A stretch of DNA of 64,000 nucleotides, taken from the NCBI RefSeq assembly GCF_019670105.1, contig NZ_AP023032.1:2846972-2910971 (forward strand). Direction: 5' to 3'. Under the pieces are notes generated by a model. The model was not told the DNA's origin and did not search any database. It saw only the letters and a list, made by a program, of their open reading frames with translations. Positions 10,994 through 62,669 of this stretch are shown piece after piece. This DNA is from Agarivorans albus (GTDB lineage: Bacteria; Pseudomonadota; Gammaproteobacteria; Enterobacterales; Celerinatantimonadaceae). The position numbers were made by a program, and so were the translations under genes. Position 1 is the stretch's first letter; every line of letters starts with the position of its first letter.

Positions 10994-11278
10994 TTAGCGA
11001 TTTAAGCCTAATTGAAAGATTAGGCTTTCTGCTTGGCAGCAAAAAGTAAACGAAGCAGCCAGTTTAAACCCGCCTTCAACAGCGGTAACTTCGCTGCTAA
11101 TTTCACAAGGATCAGACTCTGCCTTACGAGCTTTGTCTACTAAAGCGTTTAAACGGGCTTCGGCTTGTTGTTGCTCGGCAAACACTTCTTCAACTTGTGC
11201 TGTACATTCTTCGCCGTCGATAACCGCACCAACATCAACACAACAACAAGTTTTAGATTCTTCTAACTTAGTTTTCAT
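10994..11278 (-). CDS. yfcZ: YfcZ/YiiS family protein (DUF406)
   Basis: A 94-residue soluble protein with a cysteine-rich N-terminus (TCCCVDVGAVID), a central helix AEARLNALVDKARKAESDPC and the family ending FTFCCQAESLIFQLGL. Function unknown. In E. coli yfcZ lies between fadIJ and fadL; the same three blocks are present here, with the bat operon and an ECF sigma gene inserted between them. The C-terminal codons double as a terminator hairpin for the convergent bat operon. Confidence 0.9.
   Translation of the reverse strand: MKTKLEESKTCCCVDVGAVIDGEECTAQVEEVFAEQQQAEARLNALVDKARKAESDPCEISSEVTAVEGGFKLAASFTFCCQAESLIFQLGLNR
11005..11028 (+). terminator. Terminator of the moxR-bat operon, inside the end of yfcZ
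   Basis: AGCCTAAT / ATTAGGCT stem of 8 bp with a 6-nt loop, then TTT on the plus strand. It overlaps codons of the conserved yfcZ C-terminus, so coding and termination signals share sequence. Confidence 0.65.
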
Positions 11279-15353: not shown

Positions 15354-16934
15354 TTATTTACTGTTTAGTGCCAAAGCTGAATTTTGCTGGCGATGGTACA
15401 AAGTTGCGATTGTAATGGCAAATAATAACAAACCAACAGCAAGTGAAGCGATCACACTTCCGGTCATTCCCATTACCAAGTAACAGCTAATGCTTATTTT
15501 GGCGACTAACAAAGCGTAAGGGAGCTGCGTGGCTACGTGGTCAATGTGGTGACAAGCTGCGCCGGTAGATGACAAAATAGTGGTATCGGAGATAGGCGAA
15601 CAATGATCGCCAAATACCGCACCCGCTAATACTGCAGACAACATAGGCAGTATTAAGCTCACATCACTGGCTACTGACATATCGGCAGCAATTGGCAACA
15701 TAATGCCAAACGTGCCCCAACTAGTACCAGTAGAAAAGGCCATTAAACCCGCTAATACAAATACTAACACTGGCAAAATAGCTGGGCTAATCGCGCCATC
15801 TAATTTAGAGGCTAGATACTTGCCGGTTTCCATATCGCCGATTACGCCACTAATAGACCAAGCAAACACCAGAATAAGAATGGCTGGGCTCATAGCCTTA
15901 ATACCCACCCAAATGGCATGAGCAAGTTGAGACAAGCTAAGCTGTTGCTTAAACGCAAACCCCACGCTCACCAATAAGCCCACTACGCCACCAGTGACCA
16001 AAGACAGGGTGACATCGGTATTCTCTAATGCGGCTAACAGGCTAAAGGCTTGTCCTTCTTCCAATGCCGTAGCGCCTGTAACCACAAAGCTAGCAAATGT
16101 CACCAAGGTTAAAATAGCGATAGGTAATACTAAACCAAGCGGTGAGCCGTTATCGGCTTCAAAGTCATGGTTCACACTACCTGCGGGTATACCCTTGTTC
16201 TCATCAAACAATTGCCCCTTCTCAGCGTTTCTCTCATGCTGCTTCATTGGACCAATATTAATATTGAGATAAGCAACCACTAAGGCCATTAACAAGGCAA
16301 ACACGGCATAAAAGTTTAGTGGGATCATGGTGGCAAACGCAGCCAGCGGTGTGATGTCAGTGATATTGTGAGTAACCAACAAACCACCTACTAAGGCAAT
16401 AATATAAGCCCCCCAACTCGATAATGGCATCAGTACACACATTGGCGCAGCCGTTGAGTCAAGCAAGTAAGCGAGCTTGGCGCGCGATACCCCTACTTGG
16501 TCAGTAAGCGGACGCGCAACGCTACCCACCGCTAAACTGTGGAAATAGTCATCGACAAACACCACAAAGCTTAACAAGGCAGTGGTAACAGTAGCATGAC
16601 GCTTGGTCTTAATCCGTTTTTTAGCCCATTCTGCAAAGGCTGTGGTTGCGCCAGTAGCAGTCATTAAGCTAGTCATGGCGCCTAGCAGCAGGAGGAAGAT
16701 AATAATTTGCAGATTCCACCAGTTTGGCGCACCGTCATCCCACGCTAAGCCTGCTGCAAGCTGTGACAAATAAATGCCAGAATCTACAAAAGAAAAGTTA
16801 CTGAGTAACAAAGCACCCGTGATGATGCCGCAGCTAAGTGCAATAATTACGCGTCTAGTTGCTAAGGCAACCAACAGCGCAATCACCGGTGGAAGAATAG
16901 ATAAAAATGAATCGGTATAAGAAATGGTTTGCAT
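15354..16934 (-). CDS. lysW: NhaC-family antiporter, probable lysine transporter LysW
   Basis: A 526-residue polytopic inner-membrane protein of the NhaC superfamily with about 11-13 hydrophobic helices; conserved stretches include FVVFVDDYFHSLAVG, STAAPMCVLMPLSSWGAYI, STGTSWGTFGIMLPIA and GDHCSPISDTTILSSTGA. NhaC proteins are annotated as Na+/H+ antiporters, but a complete lysine riboswitch in the leader points to lysine as the substrate, the arrangement for which the name lysW was proposed. ATG 16934 (MQTISYTD) is preferred over an upstream TTG at 16964 because the riboswitch sequestering stem ends at its ribosome-binding site. Confidence 0.85.
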   Translation of the reverse strand: MQTISYTDSFLSILPPVIALLVALATRRVIIALSCGIITGALLLSNFSFVDSGIYLSQLAAGLAWDDGAPNWWNLQIIIFLLLLGAMTSLMTATGATTAFAEWAKKRIKTKRHATVTTALLSFVVFVDDYFHSLAVGSVARPLTDQVGVSRAKLAYLLDSTAAPMCVLMPLSSWGAYIIALVGGLLVTHNITDITPLAAFATMIPLNFYAVFALLMALVVAYLNINIGPMKQHERNAEKGQLFDENKGIPAGSVNHDFEADNGSPLGLVLPIAILTLVTFASFVVTGATALEEGQAFSLLAALENTDVTLSLVTGGVVGLLVSVGFAFKQQLSLSQLAHAIWVGIKAMSPAILILVFAWSISGVIGDMETGKYLASKLDGAISPAILPVLVFVLAGLMAFSTGTSWGTFGIMLPIAADMSVASDVSLILPMLSAVLAGAVFGDHCSPISDTTILSSTGAACHHIDHVATQLPYALLVAKISISCYLVMGMTGSVIASLAVGLLLFAITIATLYHRQQNSALALNSK

Positions 16935-16997
16935 GTTTTCTCTGTTTTTAAATTCAGAGAGCAAATTGAGTGACTAGAAGCCGATAGGCTTTCACTC
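16935..16997 (-). promoter_or_regulatory. Expression platform of the lysine riboswitch
   Basis: After the aptamer, a hairpin GAGTGA...TCACTC with inner AAGCC/GGCTT (16968-16997) is followed by GCTCTCTG (16955-16962). TCTCTG can pair with CAGAGA at the ribosome-binding site (16939-16944). GAGAGC in the aptamer 3' strand (17003-17008) can instead pair with GCTCTC. This gives two exclusive states: aptamer closed with the ribosome-binding site masked, or aptamer open with it free. That fits translational shut-off by lysine; the folding is my reading, not computed. Confidence 0.6.
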
Positions 16998-17156
16998 TGT
17001 AGCTCTCCATAGTTGGACTATGACAGTGTCGTATCTATTAAATCCGACACCAGTAATTAGCCTTGATAATGCTAGTTACTTCGGCGCGGGCCCCTTTCAT
17101 ACAGAATCATTGGAATCACCCCACTCTGCACTACTTTTGACCAGCGCTCCTCTACA
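16998..17156 (-). promoter_or_regulatory. Lysine riboswitch aptamer
   Basis: Minus-strand leader of the NhaC-family gene. It carries the conserved lysine-aptamer blocks in order: TGTAGAGGAGCGC, AGTAGTG, GAAAGGGG, GCCGAAG, ACTGTCATA and TGGAGAGCTACA. The closing stem P1 is TGTAG (17152-17156) with CTACA (16998-17002). The agreement with the LYS element consensus leaves little doubt. Confidence 0.95.
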
Positions 17157-17175
17157 ATATAGCGTTAAGCGCTGT

Positions 17176-51154: not shown

Positions 51155-51976
51155 TTAAACTAGAGCTAACGCAGCCTGTGGGCGTTGGTTTGCTTGAGCA
51201 AGAATCGAAGTACTAGTCTGTTGAAGAATCTGAGCTTTAGTTAAGTCAGCAGTTTCTTTAGCAAAGTCAGTATCTTTAATTCGAGAGCGAGCACCAGAGA
51301 TATTCTCTGAAATGTTAGACAAGTTACGAATCGTAGATTGGAAACGGTTTTGAACCGCACCTAATGAAGCTCGTTCAGAGTCAACCAGTTTAATGGCCGA
51401 ATCTAAAGCAGCCATAGCAGCACTAGCACCACCAACAGTAGATACTGATAGTGAAGCCAAGCCTAGGCCTGATGCGCCCCAACCACCTGAACGAGAGATA
51501 TTAACGCTAATATTTTGGCCAGCGTTTGCACCTACTAGGAACGCAGCTGAATAACCGCCGTCAAGAAGGTTAACTCCACCAAACTGAGTTGTGGTAGCAA
51601 CACGGCTCATTTCAAGCTTAAGTTGTGAAACCTCAGCTTGTAGTGCAGCGCGGTCACTAGAGTTGTTAATACCATCTTGAGATTGAACCGCTAACACACG
51701 CATACGCTGCATCATGTTAGTTAACTCGTCCATTGCACCTTCAGCAGTTTGTGCCACTGAGATACCATCTTGAGCATTCATCACAGCACGGTCTAGACCC
51801 TGAATTTGCGATGTCATACGGTTTGAGATTTGTAGACCTGCAGCATCATCTTTTGCGCTGTTAATTCTGAAACCAGAACTTAAGCGTTGATACGCAGTAT
51901 CTAGTGCGTTGCCTGAGCTTGATAGCTGGCGTTGTGCGTTCAATGACGACACATTGGTGTTGACAACTAATGCCAT
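51155..51976 (-). CDS. Flagellin (here flagellin A)
   Basis: A 273-residue flagellin with only the conserved D0/D1 regions and a very short middle: N-terminus MALVVNTNVSSLNAQRQL, then NSAKDDAAGLQISNRM, and C-terminus ending QTSTSILAQANQRPQAALAL. The exposed central part (about 140-190, rich in Ser) is where Maf could attach Pse. The leader has a near-consensus sigma28 promoter. Its ribosome-binding site (AGGAGG) lies in a 15-base sequence that recurs, in antisense sense, inside the predicted RNA at 52336-52531. It shares most residues with flagellin B. Confidence 0.95.
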   Translation of the reverse strand: MALVVNTNVSSLNAQRQLSSSGNALDTAYQRLSSGFRINSAKDDAAGLQISNRMTSQIQGLDRAVMNAQDGISVAQTAEGAMDELTNMMQRMRVLAVQSQDGINNSSDRAALQAEVSQLKLEMSRVATTTQFGGVNLLDGGYSAAFLVGANAGQNISVNISRSGGWGASGLGLASLSVSTVGGASAAMAALDSAIKLVDSERASLGAVQNRFQSTIRNLSNISENISGARSRIKDTDFAKETADLTKAQILQQTSTSILAQANQRPQAALALV

Positions 51977-51979
51977 ATT

Positions 51980-51994
51980 TTGAGCCTCCTAAGA
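51980..51994. repeat. 15-base repeat, copy 1: flagellin A ribosome-binding site
   Basis: TTGAGCCTCCTAAGA on the plus strand; on the flagellin A mRNA it reads UCUUAGGAGGCUCAA, from 18 to 4 bases before the AUG. An exact direct copy lies at 52453-52467. Confidence 0.9.
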
Positions 51995-52122
51995 AATTGT
52001 TCATCCTGATTGAACTATGTCAGGACGACCAAAACCATTTGTTAGTTGTTGAACCCCTGGTCTATGAACCGTAAACCAAGACAACTTTGAAATGGACCAA
52101 AGTTTTAATAACTTCATATTTG

Positions 52123-52149
52123 TTAGCGGCAATGGAGGAAAAAGCTTTA
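52123..52149 (-). promoter_or_regulatory. Sigma28 promoter of flagellin A
   Basis: On the minus strand TAAA, 15 bases, GCCGCTAA: one mismatch to the GCCGATAA -10 consensus. Predicted start near 52115, leaving a leader of about 140 bases. Confidence 0.8.
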
Positions 52150-52285
52150 GAAAAAAAGAGGAAAAAAGCGGAATTTTTTTGCCGCTTTTACGGCAAGCCT
52201 TGTAAACACTGGCCTTAAGCGCCAGAAAAAACTTCTGAACTCTGTTAAAAAACGGTATATTTACGTTGATTGAGTAATAAATAAA

Positions 52286-52301
52286 CGCCAAATTATTGCC
52301 A
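52286..52301 (-). promoter_or_regulatory. Weak sigma54-like element on the minus strand
   Basis: TGGCAATaattTGGC: GG and GC are ten bases apart, but the -12 box is poor. It overlaps the symmetric CCAATTATTGG next to the strong plus-strand promoter and may be chance. Confidence 0.25.
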
Positions 52302-52309
52302 CCAATTAT

Positions 52310-52324
52310 TGGCACGCACATTGC
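52310..52324 (+). promoter_or_regulatory. Consensus sigma54 promoter of the intergenic RNA
   Basis: TGGCACGcacaTTGC matches the -24/-12 consensus at every fixed position and points away from flagellin A, with no protein gene downstream on this strand. Predicted start about 52336. Confidence 0.85.
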
Positions 52325-52398
52325 TTTATTACATTCGCAGCCTGAACCGCTGCGAAAAAAAGGCCAAGTGAGTATGCATCACTTGACCGTATCGCTCG

Positions 52399-52418
52399 AA
52401 ACGATAGGAGATTGAGAG
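52399..52418. repeat. 20-base repeat, copy 1: flgE leader sequence in the intergenic RNA
   Basis: AAACGATAGGAGATTGAGAG on the plus strand. It is identical to the flgE mRNA from -20 to -1 (inverted copy at 62650-62669). It sits in the loop of a stem formed by TCGCTC and GAGCGA. Confidence 0.9.
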
Positions 52419-52452
52419 CGAAACTAAAGCGCTACTTATTATTGGTATGGAA

Positions 52453-52467
52453 TTGAGCCTCCTAAGA
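52453..52467. repeat. 15-base repeat, copy 2: anti-flagellin A segment
   Basis: Exact direct copy of 51980-51994. As part of the plus-strand RNA it can form 15 continuous pairs with the flagellin A ribosome-binding site, plus one flanking G-U. Confidence 0.9.
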
Positions 52468-52493
52468 GTACTAATAGCGCTACTGCAGTCTGA

Positions 52494-52531
52494 GGACGGT
52501 GGATTGAACCCCCACCGTCCTTTCTTTTTTT
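52494..52531 (+). terminator. Plus-strand terminator of the intergenic RNA
   Basis: GGACGGTGG / CCACCGTCC, 9-bp GC-rich stem, 9-nt loop, then TTTCTTTTTTT. The T-run exists only on the plus strand, although the nearest gene end (flagellin B, 52533) is on the minus strand. Confidence 0.85.
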
Positions 52532-52532
52532 A

Positions 52533-53357
52533 TTATCCAAGTAGAGATAGTGCAGCCTGAGGACGTTGGTTTGCTTGAGCCAAGATAGTTGTCGAGGTTT
52601 GCTGAATAATCTGGTTACGTGTTAGTTCAGCAGTCTCTTTTGCAAAATCAGTATCTTTAATTCGAGAGCGTGCCGCAGTTACATTTTCAGAAATGTTAGA
52701 CAAGTTACGAATGGTTGATTGGAATCGGTTTTGAACAGCACCAAGCTCCGCACGCTTACCGTCAATTTGCTTAATTGCAGAGTCAATAGCTGTCATAGCT
52801 GCACTTGCGCCACCAACTGTAGATACCGACAATGCACCTAAACCTAAACCAGATGTACCCCACCCTCCAGTACGAGAGATATTTACACTGATGTTTTGAC
52901 CGGCATTTGCACCAACCAAGAAACTCGCCGAGAAAGTACCATCAAGTACATTCACGCCACCAAATTGAGTGGTTGTAGCAATTCGGCTCATTTCAGCTTT
53001 AAGTTGAGAAACCTCTTGCTGCAATGCGATACGGTCATCTGAGTTGTTAATACCATCTTGTGATTGGATGGCTAATACACGGATGCGCTGTAAAGAGTTA
53101 GTTATTTCGTCCATCGCACCTTCAGCTGTTTGCGCTAATGAAATACCATCTTGAGCATTCATTACTGCACGATCCAGACCTTGAATTTGCGAAGTCATAC
53201 GGTTTGAAATTTGAAGACCAGCGGCATCATCCTTTGCACTATTAATACGCAAACCAGATGATAAACGTTGGAATGAAGTGTCTAATGACCAGCCAGACTG
53301 CGTAAGTTGGCGTTGAGCGTTAATAGACGACACATTAGTATTTACGTATAAAGCCAT
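52533..53357 (-). CDS. Flagellin (here flagellin B)
   Basis: A 274-residue flagellin close to flagellin A: start MALYVNTNVSSINAQRQLTQ, core NSAKDDAAGLQISNRMTSQI and end QTSTTILAQANQRPQAALSL. The short centre keeps the same Ser/Thr-containing segment. GATAGGAGAAATATC precedes the ATG; its 9 bases GATAGGAGA also occur in the flgE leader. It has a sigma28 promoter upstream and a long 3' UTR that may be regulatory. Differences between the two flagellins are spread through the chain, so they are old paralogues rather than a fresh copy. Confidence 0.95.
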   Translation of the reverse strand: MALYVNTNVSSINAQRQLTQSGWSLDTSFQRLSSGLRINSAKDDAAGLQISNRMTSQIQGLDRAVMNAQDGISLAQTAEGAMDEITNSLQRIRVLAIQSQDGINNSDDRIALQQEVSQLKAEMSRIATTTQFGGVNVLDGTFSASFLVGANAGQNISVNISRTGGWGTSGLGLGALSVSTVGGASAAMTAIDSAIKQIDGKRAELGAVQNRFQSTIRNLSNISENVTAARSRIKDTDFAKETAELTRNQIIQQTSTTILAQANQRPQAALSLLG

Positions 53358-61311: not shown

Positions 61312-62649
61312 TTAACGTATCTGAATAATAGTTTGCTGTAGCGTTGAGTTAACTTCTAAGGCACGAGAGTTAGCCTGGAAGTTACGCTGAGCACTAATCA
61401 AATTAACCAACTGCTCGGTTAAGTTAACGTTAGCTTGTTCTAAAGAAGCAGAGTTGATTTTACCGAAAGTCCCCGAGTTACCTTCACCGGCAATCGCTTC
61501 ACCACTTAACTGGGTTTGCTGCCATGAGGTATCACCGATTTGCGCTAAACCTTGGTTATTGGCAAATTTAGCAACCGATACTTTAGCAATATTGGTTGTT
61601 TGACCATTACTGTAAGAGGCAACAACCAAACCATCTGGGCCAATATCAATACCTGTCAATTTACCAACGGTAGAACCATCTTGCGACAAACTAGATACTT
61701 CAAAGGCTGAGTTGTACTGAGTTGGGCCATTTAGGTTAAAAGTAATGGTTTGCGTTGGATCTACAGAACCCGTTACCGGATCCCATACACCACCTGGGCC
61801 GTTTGGTGGAGCAGTACCAAGCGCTACAGTCTCAATAATAAGTGGCGCTGTAGATGCTAATGCACCGGTATTATCAAAAGTTAAAGTCGCTGATGCAGGG
61901 ATATTTGGATTAGGGTTACCCGCGTTAGGGGTATTAGCTGTACCACCTGCAACATCTACTGGCATACCGTCAATGTATATCAACTTGTGCCATGTGTTAG
62001 CCGTAGTGTCATCTTTAATAAAGAAGGTCTCAGCGACATGCGAGCCACCCTGCGAATCATACACCGTCACCGAAGTGGCAGAAGTGTAGGTATTGCTGTC
62101 GGTTGGGTCGAAATCGCCTATATCGTGAGTAGTACCGCTCGACGGCAAGTTAAAGCTCATATCAACTTGGCTTGTCATGGTAGGGTTACCTACTTCAGCA
62201 CTAATTTGAATTGCGCTGGTTGCAGCCATACTCACCGCTGAAGGCGTGCCGCTGTTGTTCACGGTATAACCTTGTAGGTATTGACCTTGCGAGTTAACAA
62301 TAAAGTTATCAGCGTTTAACTTAAACGCACCCGCACGAGTAAACTCTCGTGTTTGAGTGGTTAAGTCTGATGCGGTAACAAAAAAGCCTTCGCCACTGAT
62401 CGCCATATCTAAGGCATTCTGGGTAAAGTTAAGACTACCTTGGTGGAATTGCTGAGCTACATCTACAGTTTTAACACCATTACCAACTGCGGTACGAGCA
62501 TTTGAGAAAATCGATGTTGCATACACATCGGCAAACTCAGCACGCGACTCTTTAAAACCAATGGTGTTGACGTTAGCAATATTGTTCGCCGTTACGTCAA
62601 GATCCTTTTGCGAGGCATTGATGCCGCTTAGAGCGATATTAAATGACAT
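61312..62649 (-). CDS. flgE: Flagellar hook protein FlgE
   Basis: A 445-residue hook protein: MSFNIALSGINASQKDLDVT, NNIANVNTIGFKESRAEFAD, and the C-terminal LVNLISAQRNFQANSRALEV. The leader immediately before its ATG (20 bases) recurs exactly in the intergenic RNA between the flagellin genes. That makes flgE the probable target, or the protected mRNA, of an RNA switch. It follows flgD by 32 bases and ends at a strong terminator. Confidence 0.95.
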   Translation of the reverse strand: MSFNIALSGINASQKDLDVTANNIANVNTIGFKESRAEFADVYATSIFSNARTAVGNGVKTVDVAQQFHQGSLNFTQNALDMAISGEGFFVTASDLTTQTREFTRAGAFKLNADNFIVNSQGQYLQGYTVNNSGTPSAVSMAATSAIQISAEVGNPTMTSQVDMSFNLPSSGTTHDIGDFDPTDSNTYTSATSVTVYDSQGGSHVAETFFIKDDTTANTWHKLIYIDGMPVDVAGGTANTPNAGNPNPNIPASATLTFDNTGALASTAPLIIETVALGTAPPNGPGGVWDPVTGSVDPTQTITFNLNGPTQYNSAFEVSSLSQDGSTVGKLTGIDIGPDGLVVASYSNGQTTNIAKVSVAKFANNQGLAQIGDTSWQQTQLSGEAIAGEGNSGTFGKINSASLEQANVNLTEQLVNLISAQRNFQANSRALEVNSTLQQTIIQIR

Positions 62650-62669
62650 CTCTCAATCTCCTATCGTTT
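62650..62669. repeat. 20-base repeat, copy 2: flgE ribosome-binding site
   Basis: On the minus strand AAACGATAGGAGATTGAGAG lies directly against the flgE ATG and contains its Shine-Dalgarno AGGAG. The inverted exact copy is at 52399-52418. Confidence 0.95.

Follow-up and report, generated by a model that had tools for sequence, protein, structure and literature searches.

Antisense to a flagellin 3′ untranslated region: a conserved, predicted sigma54-type RNA of Agarivorans albus that may repress flagellin A, with a possible link to the hook gene

Between the flagellin genes flaB and flaA of Agarivorans albus lies a 556-nucleotide (nt) gap from which a small RNA (sRNA) with a sigma54 promoter motif is predicted to be transcribed on the strand opposite to the flagellins. 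This element (the plus RNA) and the 3′ untranslated region (3′UTR) of flaB predicted to run across it (the minus RNA) are the subject of this analysis. The stretch of DNA analysed, hereafter the window, comprises 64,000 nt of contig NZ_AP023032.1, while whole-genome counts refer to the 4.79-Mb genome. Flagellar genes, under names that we take to be right from similarity and gene order, follow each other on the minus strand as flgD, flgE, flgF to flgL, flaB, the 556-nt gap, flaA, a flaG-like gene, and fliD. The locus is real and conserved; its RNAs are predicted. The genes and features on which the argument turns are the following.

61312–62649, minus strand: flgE coding sequence, with its ribosome-binding site (RBS) at 62650–62669
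53565–53540 and 53463–53438, minus strand: sigma28-type motifs before flaB
52533–53357, minus strand: flaB, the upstream flagellin
52355–52532, minus strand: predicted 3′UTR of flaB (minus RNA), complementary to the plus RNA
52310–52324, plus strand: sigma54 motif TGGCACGCACATTGC, proposed promoter of the plus RNA
52336–52531, plus strand: plus RNA, a predicted sigma54-type sRNA, its start inferred from the motif and its end placed at the end of the T-run
52337–52353, plus strand: hairpin 1, GCAG/CUGC stem, invariant UGAACC in the loop
52362–52388, minus strand: hairpin 2, terminator of the flaB transcript, with U7 at 52361–52355
52392–52421, plus strand: hairpin 3, UCGCUC/GAGCGA stem, its loop a sense copy of the flgE RBS (52399–52418)
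52428–52481, plus strand: hairpin 4, AGCGCUA/UAGCGCU stem, its loop holding the anti-flaA-RBS segment (52453–52467)
52494–52520, plus strand: hairpin 5, plus-strand terminator, UGAACC in the loop, T-run at 52521–52531
about 52150–52124, minus strand: sigma28-type motif before flaA
51977–52117, minus strand: flaA 5′ leader, RBS at 51980–51994
52065–52070 and 52050–52055 (TGAACC on the plus strand) and 52010–52015 (TTGAAC): the (G)GUUCA copies of the flaA leader
51155–51976, minus strand: flaA, the downstream flagellin and predicted target of the plus RNA

The plus-RNA unit was present in all 12 genomes of the window genome's family that were compared (given G numbers, and spanning four genera; G005 belongs to the same genus as the window genome), and BLAST recovered the element from 12/60 genomes, every one of them from the family. 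Kept in 12/12 were the sigma54 motif, as TTGGCA[CT]-N6-TGC, both T-runs, and the UGAACC of hairpin 1 and of the terminator loop. Sigma28-type motifs stood upstream of both flaA and flaB in 12/12 genomes (for flaB, the nearer motif in 12/12 and the farther one in 8/12), and a sense sigma54 motif upstream of flaA or flaB was found in none of the 12. A minus-strand open reading frame (ORF) at 52001–52321 was set aside as spurious because its start falls within the sigma54 motif; it was dropped from the leader counts of the window (those for match shuffles and duplex energies), leaving 74 ORF leaders.

Termination signals delimit the two RNAs. The plus-strand terminator hairpin at 52494–52520 is visible both in the sequence and in the predicted fold, and went unlisted in the terminator scan because its loop of 9 nt is longer than the 8 that the scan allows. 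On the minus strand of the gap, the sole listed terminator is the hairpin at 52388–52362 with its U7 at 52361–52355, and the flaB 3′UTR and the plus RNA are therefore predicted to overlap over about 178 nt. Hairpin 2 appears to be built for the other strand, since in the family alignment A.C cells on the plus strand, which are G.U on the minus strand, outnumber G.U cells on the plus strand by 9 to 3 and the minus-strand U-run is kept in 12/12 genomes; in hairpin 1, G.U cells on the plus strand number 6 and A.C cells 2. The scan found three terminators in total, near the shuffled mean of 2.4, and a promoter scan, which gave three sigma70-like matches vs a shuffled mean of 5.7, was not used.

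The fold itself is conserved. Both strands of the element reached folding energies that beat 200/200 shuffles (z of -4.65 for the plus and -5.35 for the minus strand), and under a fixed structure 92.7% of the cells in the family alignment pair. The covariation score was 0.138 vs 0.082 in shuffled alignments (reached by 0/500), and at most 0.031 when slid; cells changed on both sides of a pair numbered 14 vs 4.9 in the shuffles (0/500), and hairpin 2 has four pairs with both-side changes. TAGGAG in the loop at 52399–52418 and CTCCTA in that at 52453–52467, each invariant in 12/12, could also pair with each other to form a lock within the plus RNA.

The predicted target of the plus RNA is flaA. 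Positions 52453–52467 of the plus RNA are antisense over 15 nt to the flaA RBS (51994–51980), and the sequence involved, CTTAGGAGGCTC, occurs at exactly two sites in the genome, the flaA leader and the element. When the RNA was shuffled 2000 times with dinucleotide composition preserved and compared with the 74 window leaders, the longest sense match was 15 nt and the longest antisense match 13, so that 0/2000 reached the observed values; on this and the whole-genome counts, we reject a chance origin of the two long matches, the one to flaA and that to flgE described below. The antisense match to the flaA RBS extends over 12–16 nt in 12/12 family genomes. In G006, a C to U change in the flaA leader is compensated by a G to A change in the sRNA, and in G005 a change in the sRNA leaves a G.U pair with the leader. 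Calculated duplex energies rank flaA first of the 74 leaders for the plus RNA. Of the 12 family loci, eight were ranked against all ORF leaders, and flaA was the best antisense match in seven; in the window it came second, below the spurious ORF 52001–52321, which overlaps the element.

A further kind of contact may add to the pairing at the RBS. The flaA leader contains three copies of GTTCA in 12/12 family genomes; across 75 upstream regions of the window, three copies are found only before flaA, with one copy in five regions and none in 69. In minimum-energy folds of the leader, the first GUUCA copy is unpaired (with one base excepted in G006) and the second and third are unpaired in 9/12 genomes, while the hairpin around the third copy shows paired changes. 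Because the UGAACC loops of the sRNA are complementary to the GGUUCA of the leader, we propose kissing contacts in addition to the RBS pairing; the plus RNA and the flaA leader could thus meet at several points.

Conservation of the leaders agrees with the choice of partners. Over 18 positions compared ungapped, as mean identity to the window in the other genera, flaA (17.0) and flgE (15.2) were the top two of 11 comparable genes, followed by flgD (10.7, from three genomes); flaG, fliD, and the fliS-like gene yielded no comparison and are left out of the count. These two are also the genes with long partner segments in the element. Invariant positions over the 12 genomes number 15 of 18 for flaA and just 7 of 18 for flgE, the latter because G007 differs.

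The link to flgE lies in the loop of hairpin 3, where 52399–52418 is identical in sense, over 20 nt, to the flgE RBS (62669–62650, minus strand), such that the minus RNA would carry an anti-RBS segment for the hook gene. Without mismatch, GATAGGAGATTGA occurs at exactly two sites in the genome, the flgE leader and the element. The sole other near copy of the flgE-RBS core, with one mismatch, lies outside the window at G000:C1:3348594-3348606 on the minus strand. Within the family, ATAGGAGATTGAGAG is present in the flgE leader of 11/12 genomes (all but G007) and exactly in the hairpin-3 loop of 9/12. The exact match between loop and flgE measures 20 nt in six genomes and 14–16 nt in four; it falls to 11 in G008 and to 10 in G007. 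The same loop matches the flaB leader as GATAGGAGA(T), over 9–10 nt in 12/12 genomes; in 11/12 its exact match to flgE exceeds that to flaB, with a tie in the remaining one. Among the eight of 12 family loci that were ranked, flgE was the best or tied sense match in 8/8, and by duplex energy it came first of the 74 leaders for the minus RNA, by a small margin. Beyond the family this link changes. We considered GATAGGAGATTGAGAG as the usual flgE leader of the order and rejected it, as it was missing from nine leaders of other families in a first set of 13 (the remaining four belonging to the family) and from 17/17 leaders outside the family in a second set, all of which differ from the family's. 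Mimicry of flgE was likewise rejected as a general feature. The predicted hook link is family-specific, because the "flgE" loop elsewhere mostly resembles a flagellin RBS.

Much of this architecture had been proposed by an earlier, sequence-only reading of the window. That reading described a plus-strand RNA of sigma54 timing that carries flgE sequence in sense and can block flagellin A, and the motif and the 20-nt and 15-nt matches confirm the observation behind it; the complementarity that it placed at about 178 nt agrees with the terminator positions, and its separate terminators on the two strands, with targeting segments in loops, are recovered in sequence and fold. It had missed the contacts between the UGAACC loops and GGUUCA in the flaA leader.

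Outside the family, 16 of 141 flagellin–flagellin gaps carried an antisense sigma54 motif, vs 0.17 expected from mononucleotide shuffles, and eight carried a sense one. A covariance model of the family's RNAs was applied to the window, to 60 of the loci compared (given L numbers), and to 295 genomes of the order. Outside the family, it returned nine matches with E < 0.001 (L052, L042 twice, L180, L049, L053, L057, L054, and L045), all antisense to flagellins within flagellin clusters, seven of which had a sigma54-like motif at most 70 nt upstream; for L180 there is one a little farther away. Similar RNAs, antisense in flagellin gaps, were found in Marinomonas- and Alteromonas-type loci. Among the 295 genomes, under strict filters, the model recovered all 12 members of the family plus six others at E ≤ 0.01, the best two in the family labelled f7 and the other four weak.

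The segments that would address a target vary among these relatives. In other lineages the flagellin RBS is a different one, and the anti-RBS segment fits it: scored as +1 per match and -2 per mismatch, anti-RBS segments reached 15 (L043), 14 (L065), 12 (L045, L084, and L054), and 11 (L023, L041, and L076) against other flagellins. The hairpin-3 loop, in turn, scored 12 (L053), 11 (L057), 10 (L054 and L180), and 9 (L049, L051, and L055) against flagellin RBSs, that of L045 scored 11 against the second flagellin and 10 against the one just upstream, and that of L080 matched the upstream flagellin over 9 nt in a direct comparison outside the leader ranking. In the Pseudoalteromonas- and Thalassotalea-type loci (L065, L076, L084, L085, and L086), a flagellin leader was the best or tied antisense match in 4/5 (9–14 nt; not L085); none of the five had a clear RBS copy or a covariance-model match, and L065, L076, L085, and L086 had no top-ranked RBS copy. 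In L042 and L180 the top antisense row was an ORF that overlaps the element. As separate observations, in the Pseudoalteromonas loci L065 and L084 the antisense sigma54 unit that lies between the first two flagellins has an anti-RBS segment (14 and 12 nt) for the third, and two copies of the antisense RNA occupy different flagellin gaps of one genome both in L042 (10885–10980 and 13509–13596) and in L045 (8205–8400, weak at E 0.003, and 11009–11101). These copies, with RBS-like loops matching flagellin leaders, are possible paralogs.

From the promoter motifs, terminators, folds, complementarities, and conservation described above, we infer the following course of events. At the hook stage, sigma54 would make the plus RNA from the locus; its two UGAACC loops would kiss the GGUUCA segments of the flaA 5′ leader, after which hairpin 4 would pair with the flaA RBS, so that flaA mRNA transcribed by sigma28 stays untranslated while sigma54 transcription dominates. 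Once sigma28 is active, flaB and flaA would be transcribed, and the flaB 3′UTR, a full complement of the plus RNA, would remove it. The two RNAs, being complementary over about 178 nt, should therefore remove each other, with the output set by the ratio of sigma54 to sigma28. The flaB 3′UTR may itself hold down flgE and flaB through its anti-RBS loop, and the resulting order would be hook, then FlaB, then FlaA. That the plus RNA exists is very likely on these signals, and it likely represses flaA; that it antagonises the flaB 3′UTR is somewhat better than an even bet. Action of the flaB 3′UTR on flgE we hold only tentatively, because the address in loop 3 differs between families. The flaA half is thus well supported, the flgE half plausible, and the switch a good hypothesis; taken whole, an explanation by a sigma54-timed repressor of flaA, opposed by the convergent flaB 3′UTR, is probably correct. 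The hook-to-filament switch of the sequence-only reading accordingly stands in part: its flaA half gains from the unit in 12/12 genomes, the RBS match of 12–16 nt in 12/12, and the compensatory change in G006, while the minus-strand side, in which the flaB 3′UTR would act against flgE, is supported with less certainty (U-run in 12/12; match to flgE of 14–20 nt in 10/12, and of 11 and 10 nt in two).

A stronger version, which appears doubtful to us, would make both strands of the one segment into regulators, each with the anti-RBS of one assembly stage and an RBS copy of the other. The sigma54 RNA would then block FlaA and soak up the hook blocker, the sigma28-driven flaB 3′UTR would block FlgE and soak up the filament blocker, and over evolution the geometry would be kept while the addresses are swapped, with flgE addressed in this family and a flagellin in genomes of the Marinomonas and Alteromonas types.

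Several results pull against the favoured explanation, that of a sigma54-timed flaA repressor opposed by the flaB 3′UTR, or against its hook arm. The loop and the flgE leader of G007 have just 10 nt in common, which does not exceed the loop's match to flaB, and those of G008 have 11. Of the 17 outside loci whose flgE leaders were compared, 13 have a comparable RNA, and in 13/13 the best flgE score was 5–9 and did not fall in the hairpin-3 loop, with the exception of L057, where it was a bare AGGAG. The best antisense match lay outside the flagellin leaders in L052 and in five Marinomonas loci that have the motif (L049, L051, L055, L057, and L080). The margins of the duplex energies are small (-39.7 vs -36.7 and -39.5 vs -37.2), and the method ignores internal structure; in 3/12 minimum-energy folds, that of the window included, the second and third GUUCA copies are paired in part or in full. 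Regarding the structure, pairs changed on both sides (7) were matched by 9/500 shuffles, further pair types, one of five structure measures, were not above the shuffles (165/500), and the RNAalifold covariation term is just -0.36. Hairpins 3 and 5 give no covariation signal, because they never vary within the family.

The main rival, given the changing address of loop 3, holds that the minus-strand loop serves first of all in self-control of flaB, whose 3′UTR would pair with the flaB RBS as in icaR; the sigma54 RNA would cover that 3′UTR and free flaB early while blocking flaA, the filament would start with FlaB, and the flgE match would be a later addition in the family. Here the hairpin-3 loops outside the family speak for the rival, since they resemble a flagellin RBS, mostly that of the flagellin just upstream, as do the GATAGGAGA that flaB shares with the loop in 12/12 family genomes and the precedent of icaR in Staphylococcus aureus, as excerpted in PMC3868564. 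A 3′UTR segment complementary to the RBS of its own mRNA is indeed present here, but it is weaker than the flgE match in 11/12 genomes, with one tie, and the flgE leader is conserved above the flaB leader in the ungapped count. On balance we regard self-control of flaB as the primary role of the loop as unlikely, if well worth considering.

It is less probable still that only the plus RNA matters, its RBS-like loop being a decoy for a protein such as CsrA or part of an internal lock, in which UAGGAG of loop 3 pairs with CUCCUA of loop 4. TAGGAG and CTCCTA are invariant in 12/12, a CsrA gene is present in the genome, and CsrA RNA immunoprecipitation sequencing in Pseudoalteromonas fuliginea recovered 30 flagellar genes according to the excerpted text of PMC11882849; as for the GGA motifs of a CsrA sponge, the RNA has one clear looped AGGA (hairpin 3) and one GGA before the anti-RBS segment. 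However, neither a decoy nor a lock needs 14–20 nt of identity to one mRNA, the Marinomonas RNA of L049 is without CTCCTA, the loop tracks the changing RBSs between lineages, and hairpin 2 has the make-up of a terminator for the minus strand. A mere two-way terminator, whose RBS-like pieces would be recombination copies from neighbouring flagellar genes, would account for hairpin 2 being listed as a terminator, for the terminator shape of hairpin 5, and for the resemblance of 52475–52506 to the flaB 3′ end (32 nt, 81%). It would leave unexplained the conservation of sigma54 motif, hairpin 1, both loops, and paired changes over four genera, as well as the antisense sigma54 motifs in 16/141 outside-family gaps vs 0.17 expected, and we judge it highly improbable.

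Rfam 15 gave no family match to the element at gathering score, and its only match in the window lies elsewhere, a lysine riboswitch (RF00168, 121.7 bits) at 16992–17162 on the minus strand, upstream of a 536-amino-acid ORF (15354–16964). A search of openly licensed literature, which does not include the two primary FlaX papers, turned up no account of a sigma54 RNA lying antisense between the flagellin genes of such bacteria; for Alteromonas Te101, the excerpts of PMC5864184 report 127 chromosomal sRNAs.

Among known systems, FlaX of Vibrio cholerae shares several traits with the plus RNA. FlaX has been the subject of work by Dong and Mekalanos in 2012 and by Ghandour et al. in 2025. The sRNA is said to pair with flaB mRNA at multiple sites and to bind ProQ. 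A ProQ gene is present in the genome studied here, and several sites facing a flagellin 5′ region are likewise seen, by sequence only, in the anti-RBS loop and the two UGAACC loops vs the three (G)GUUCA copies. The plus RNA also resembles FlaX in its origin in a flagellin-gene region, its predicted sigma54 timing (a link present in 12/12 genomes, by motif only), and the class of its proposed target. In the excerpts at hand, FlaX is linked to the sigma54-dependent gene flaA, whose translation it is said to lower (PMC12607845), and is described as derived from an mRNA 3′ end (PMC12559287). In contrast, the plus RNA is not the 3′ end of a flagellin mRNA, because its own promoter motif lies on the opposite strand; the minus RNA is a predicted 3′UTR, yet that of a sigma28-type gene. 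In two Vibrio-like loci (L186 and L189), the 3′UTR of the first, flaA-like flagellin has 12–13 nt (GTTCTCTCAAAG) complementary to the following flagellin's 5′ leader, and four Vibrio-like loci had no antisense sigma54 motif in their flagellin gaps.

Overlapping RNAs on opposite strands are known from Campylobacter jejuni, in which one member of the CJnc190/CJnc180 pair represses an mRNA at its RBS and the other antagonises it, the trans role of the antagonist remaining open, as far as the excerpted paper goes (PMC8687705). The signals for two overlapping opposite-strand RNAs and the predicted 15-nt pairing with the flaA RBS may recall that pair, whereas here each strand has an anti-RBS segment for a different flagellar gene. 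In the same species, FlmE and FlmR are sigma54-linked and sigma28-linked sRNAs with opposite effects in the flagellar cascade, FlmE being processed from flgE mRNA and repressing flgM and Cj1387c; the excerpts of that source contain no statement that the two are mutually antisense (PMC11187230). The Campylobacter RNAs CjNC1 and CjNC4 are sigma28-dependent and predicted to hit leaders of sigma54-dependent flagellar genes but, in the passages available, are described as paralogs (37/44 nt identical) with no growth, motility, or flagella-associated phenotype (PMC4626219). FliX, MotR, UhpU, and FlgO of Escherichia coli are UTR-derived flagellar sRNAs that differ from the plus RNA in being sigma28-dependent, and MotR and FliX pair within coding sequences (PMC10578931, in excerpt), FliX coming from the fliC 3′UTR (PMC11187230, in excerpt). 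In icaR of S. aureus, an anti-Shine-Dalgarno motif of the 3′UTR pairs with the RBS of the same mRNA; the flaB 3′UTR loop has a 9–10 nt match of this kind, while icaR targets itself and its abstract names no opposing sigma54 RNA (PMC3868564).

What, apart from the two sigma factors, sets the order of hook, first flagellin, and later flagellins in cells with several flagellins is poorly understood, and the locus offers a small, testable device for such an ordering step, with target addresses that can be read from the sequence in many marine bacteria. If the proposal is true, it would extend control of the FlaX type to an opposite-strand design, and would give an example of a DNA segment whose two strands both act in trans, on consecutive assembly stages.
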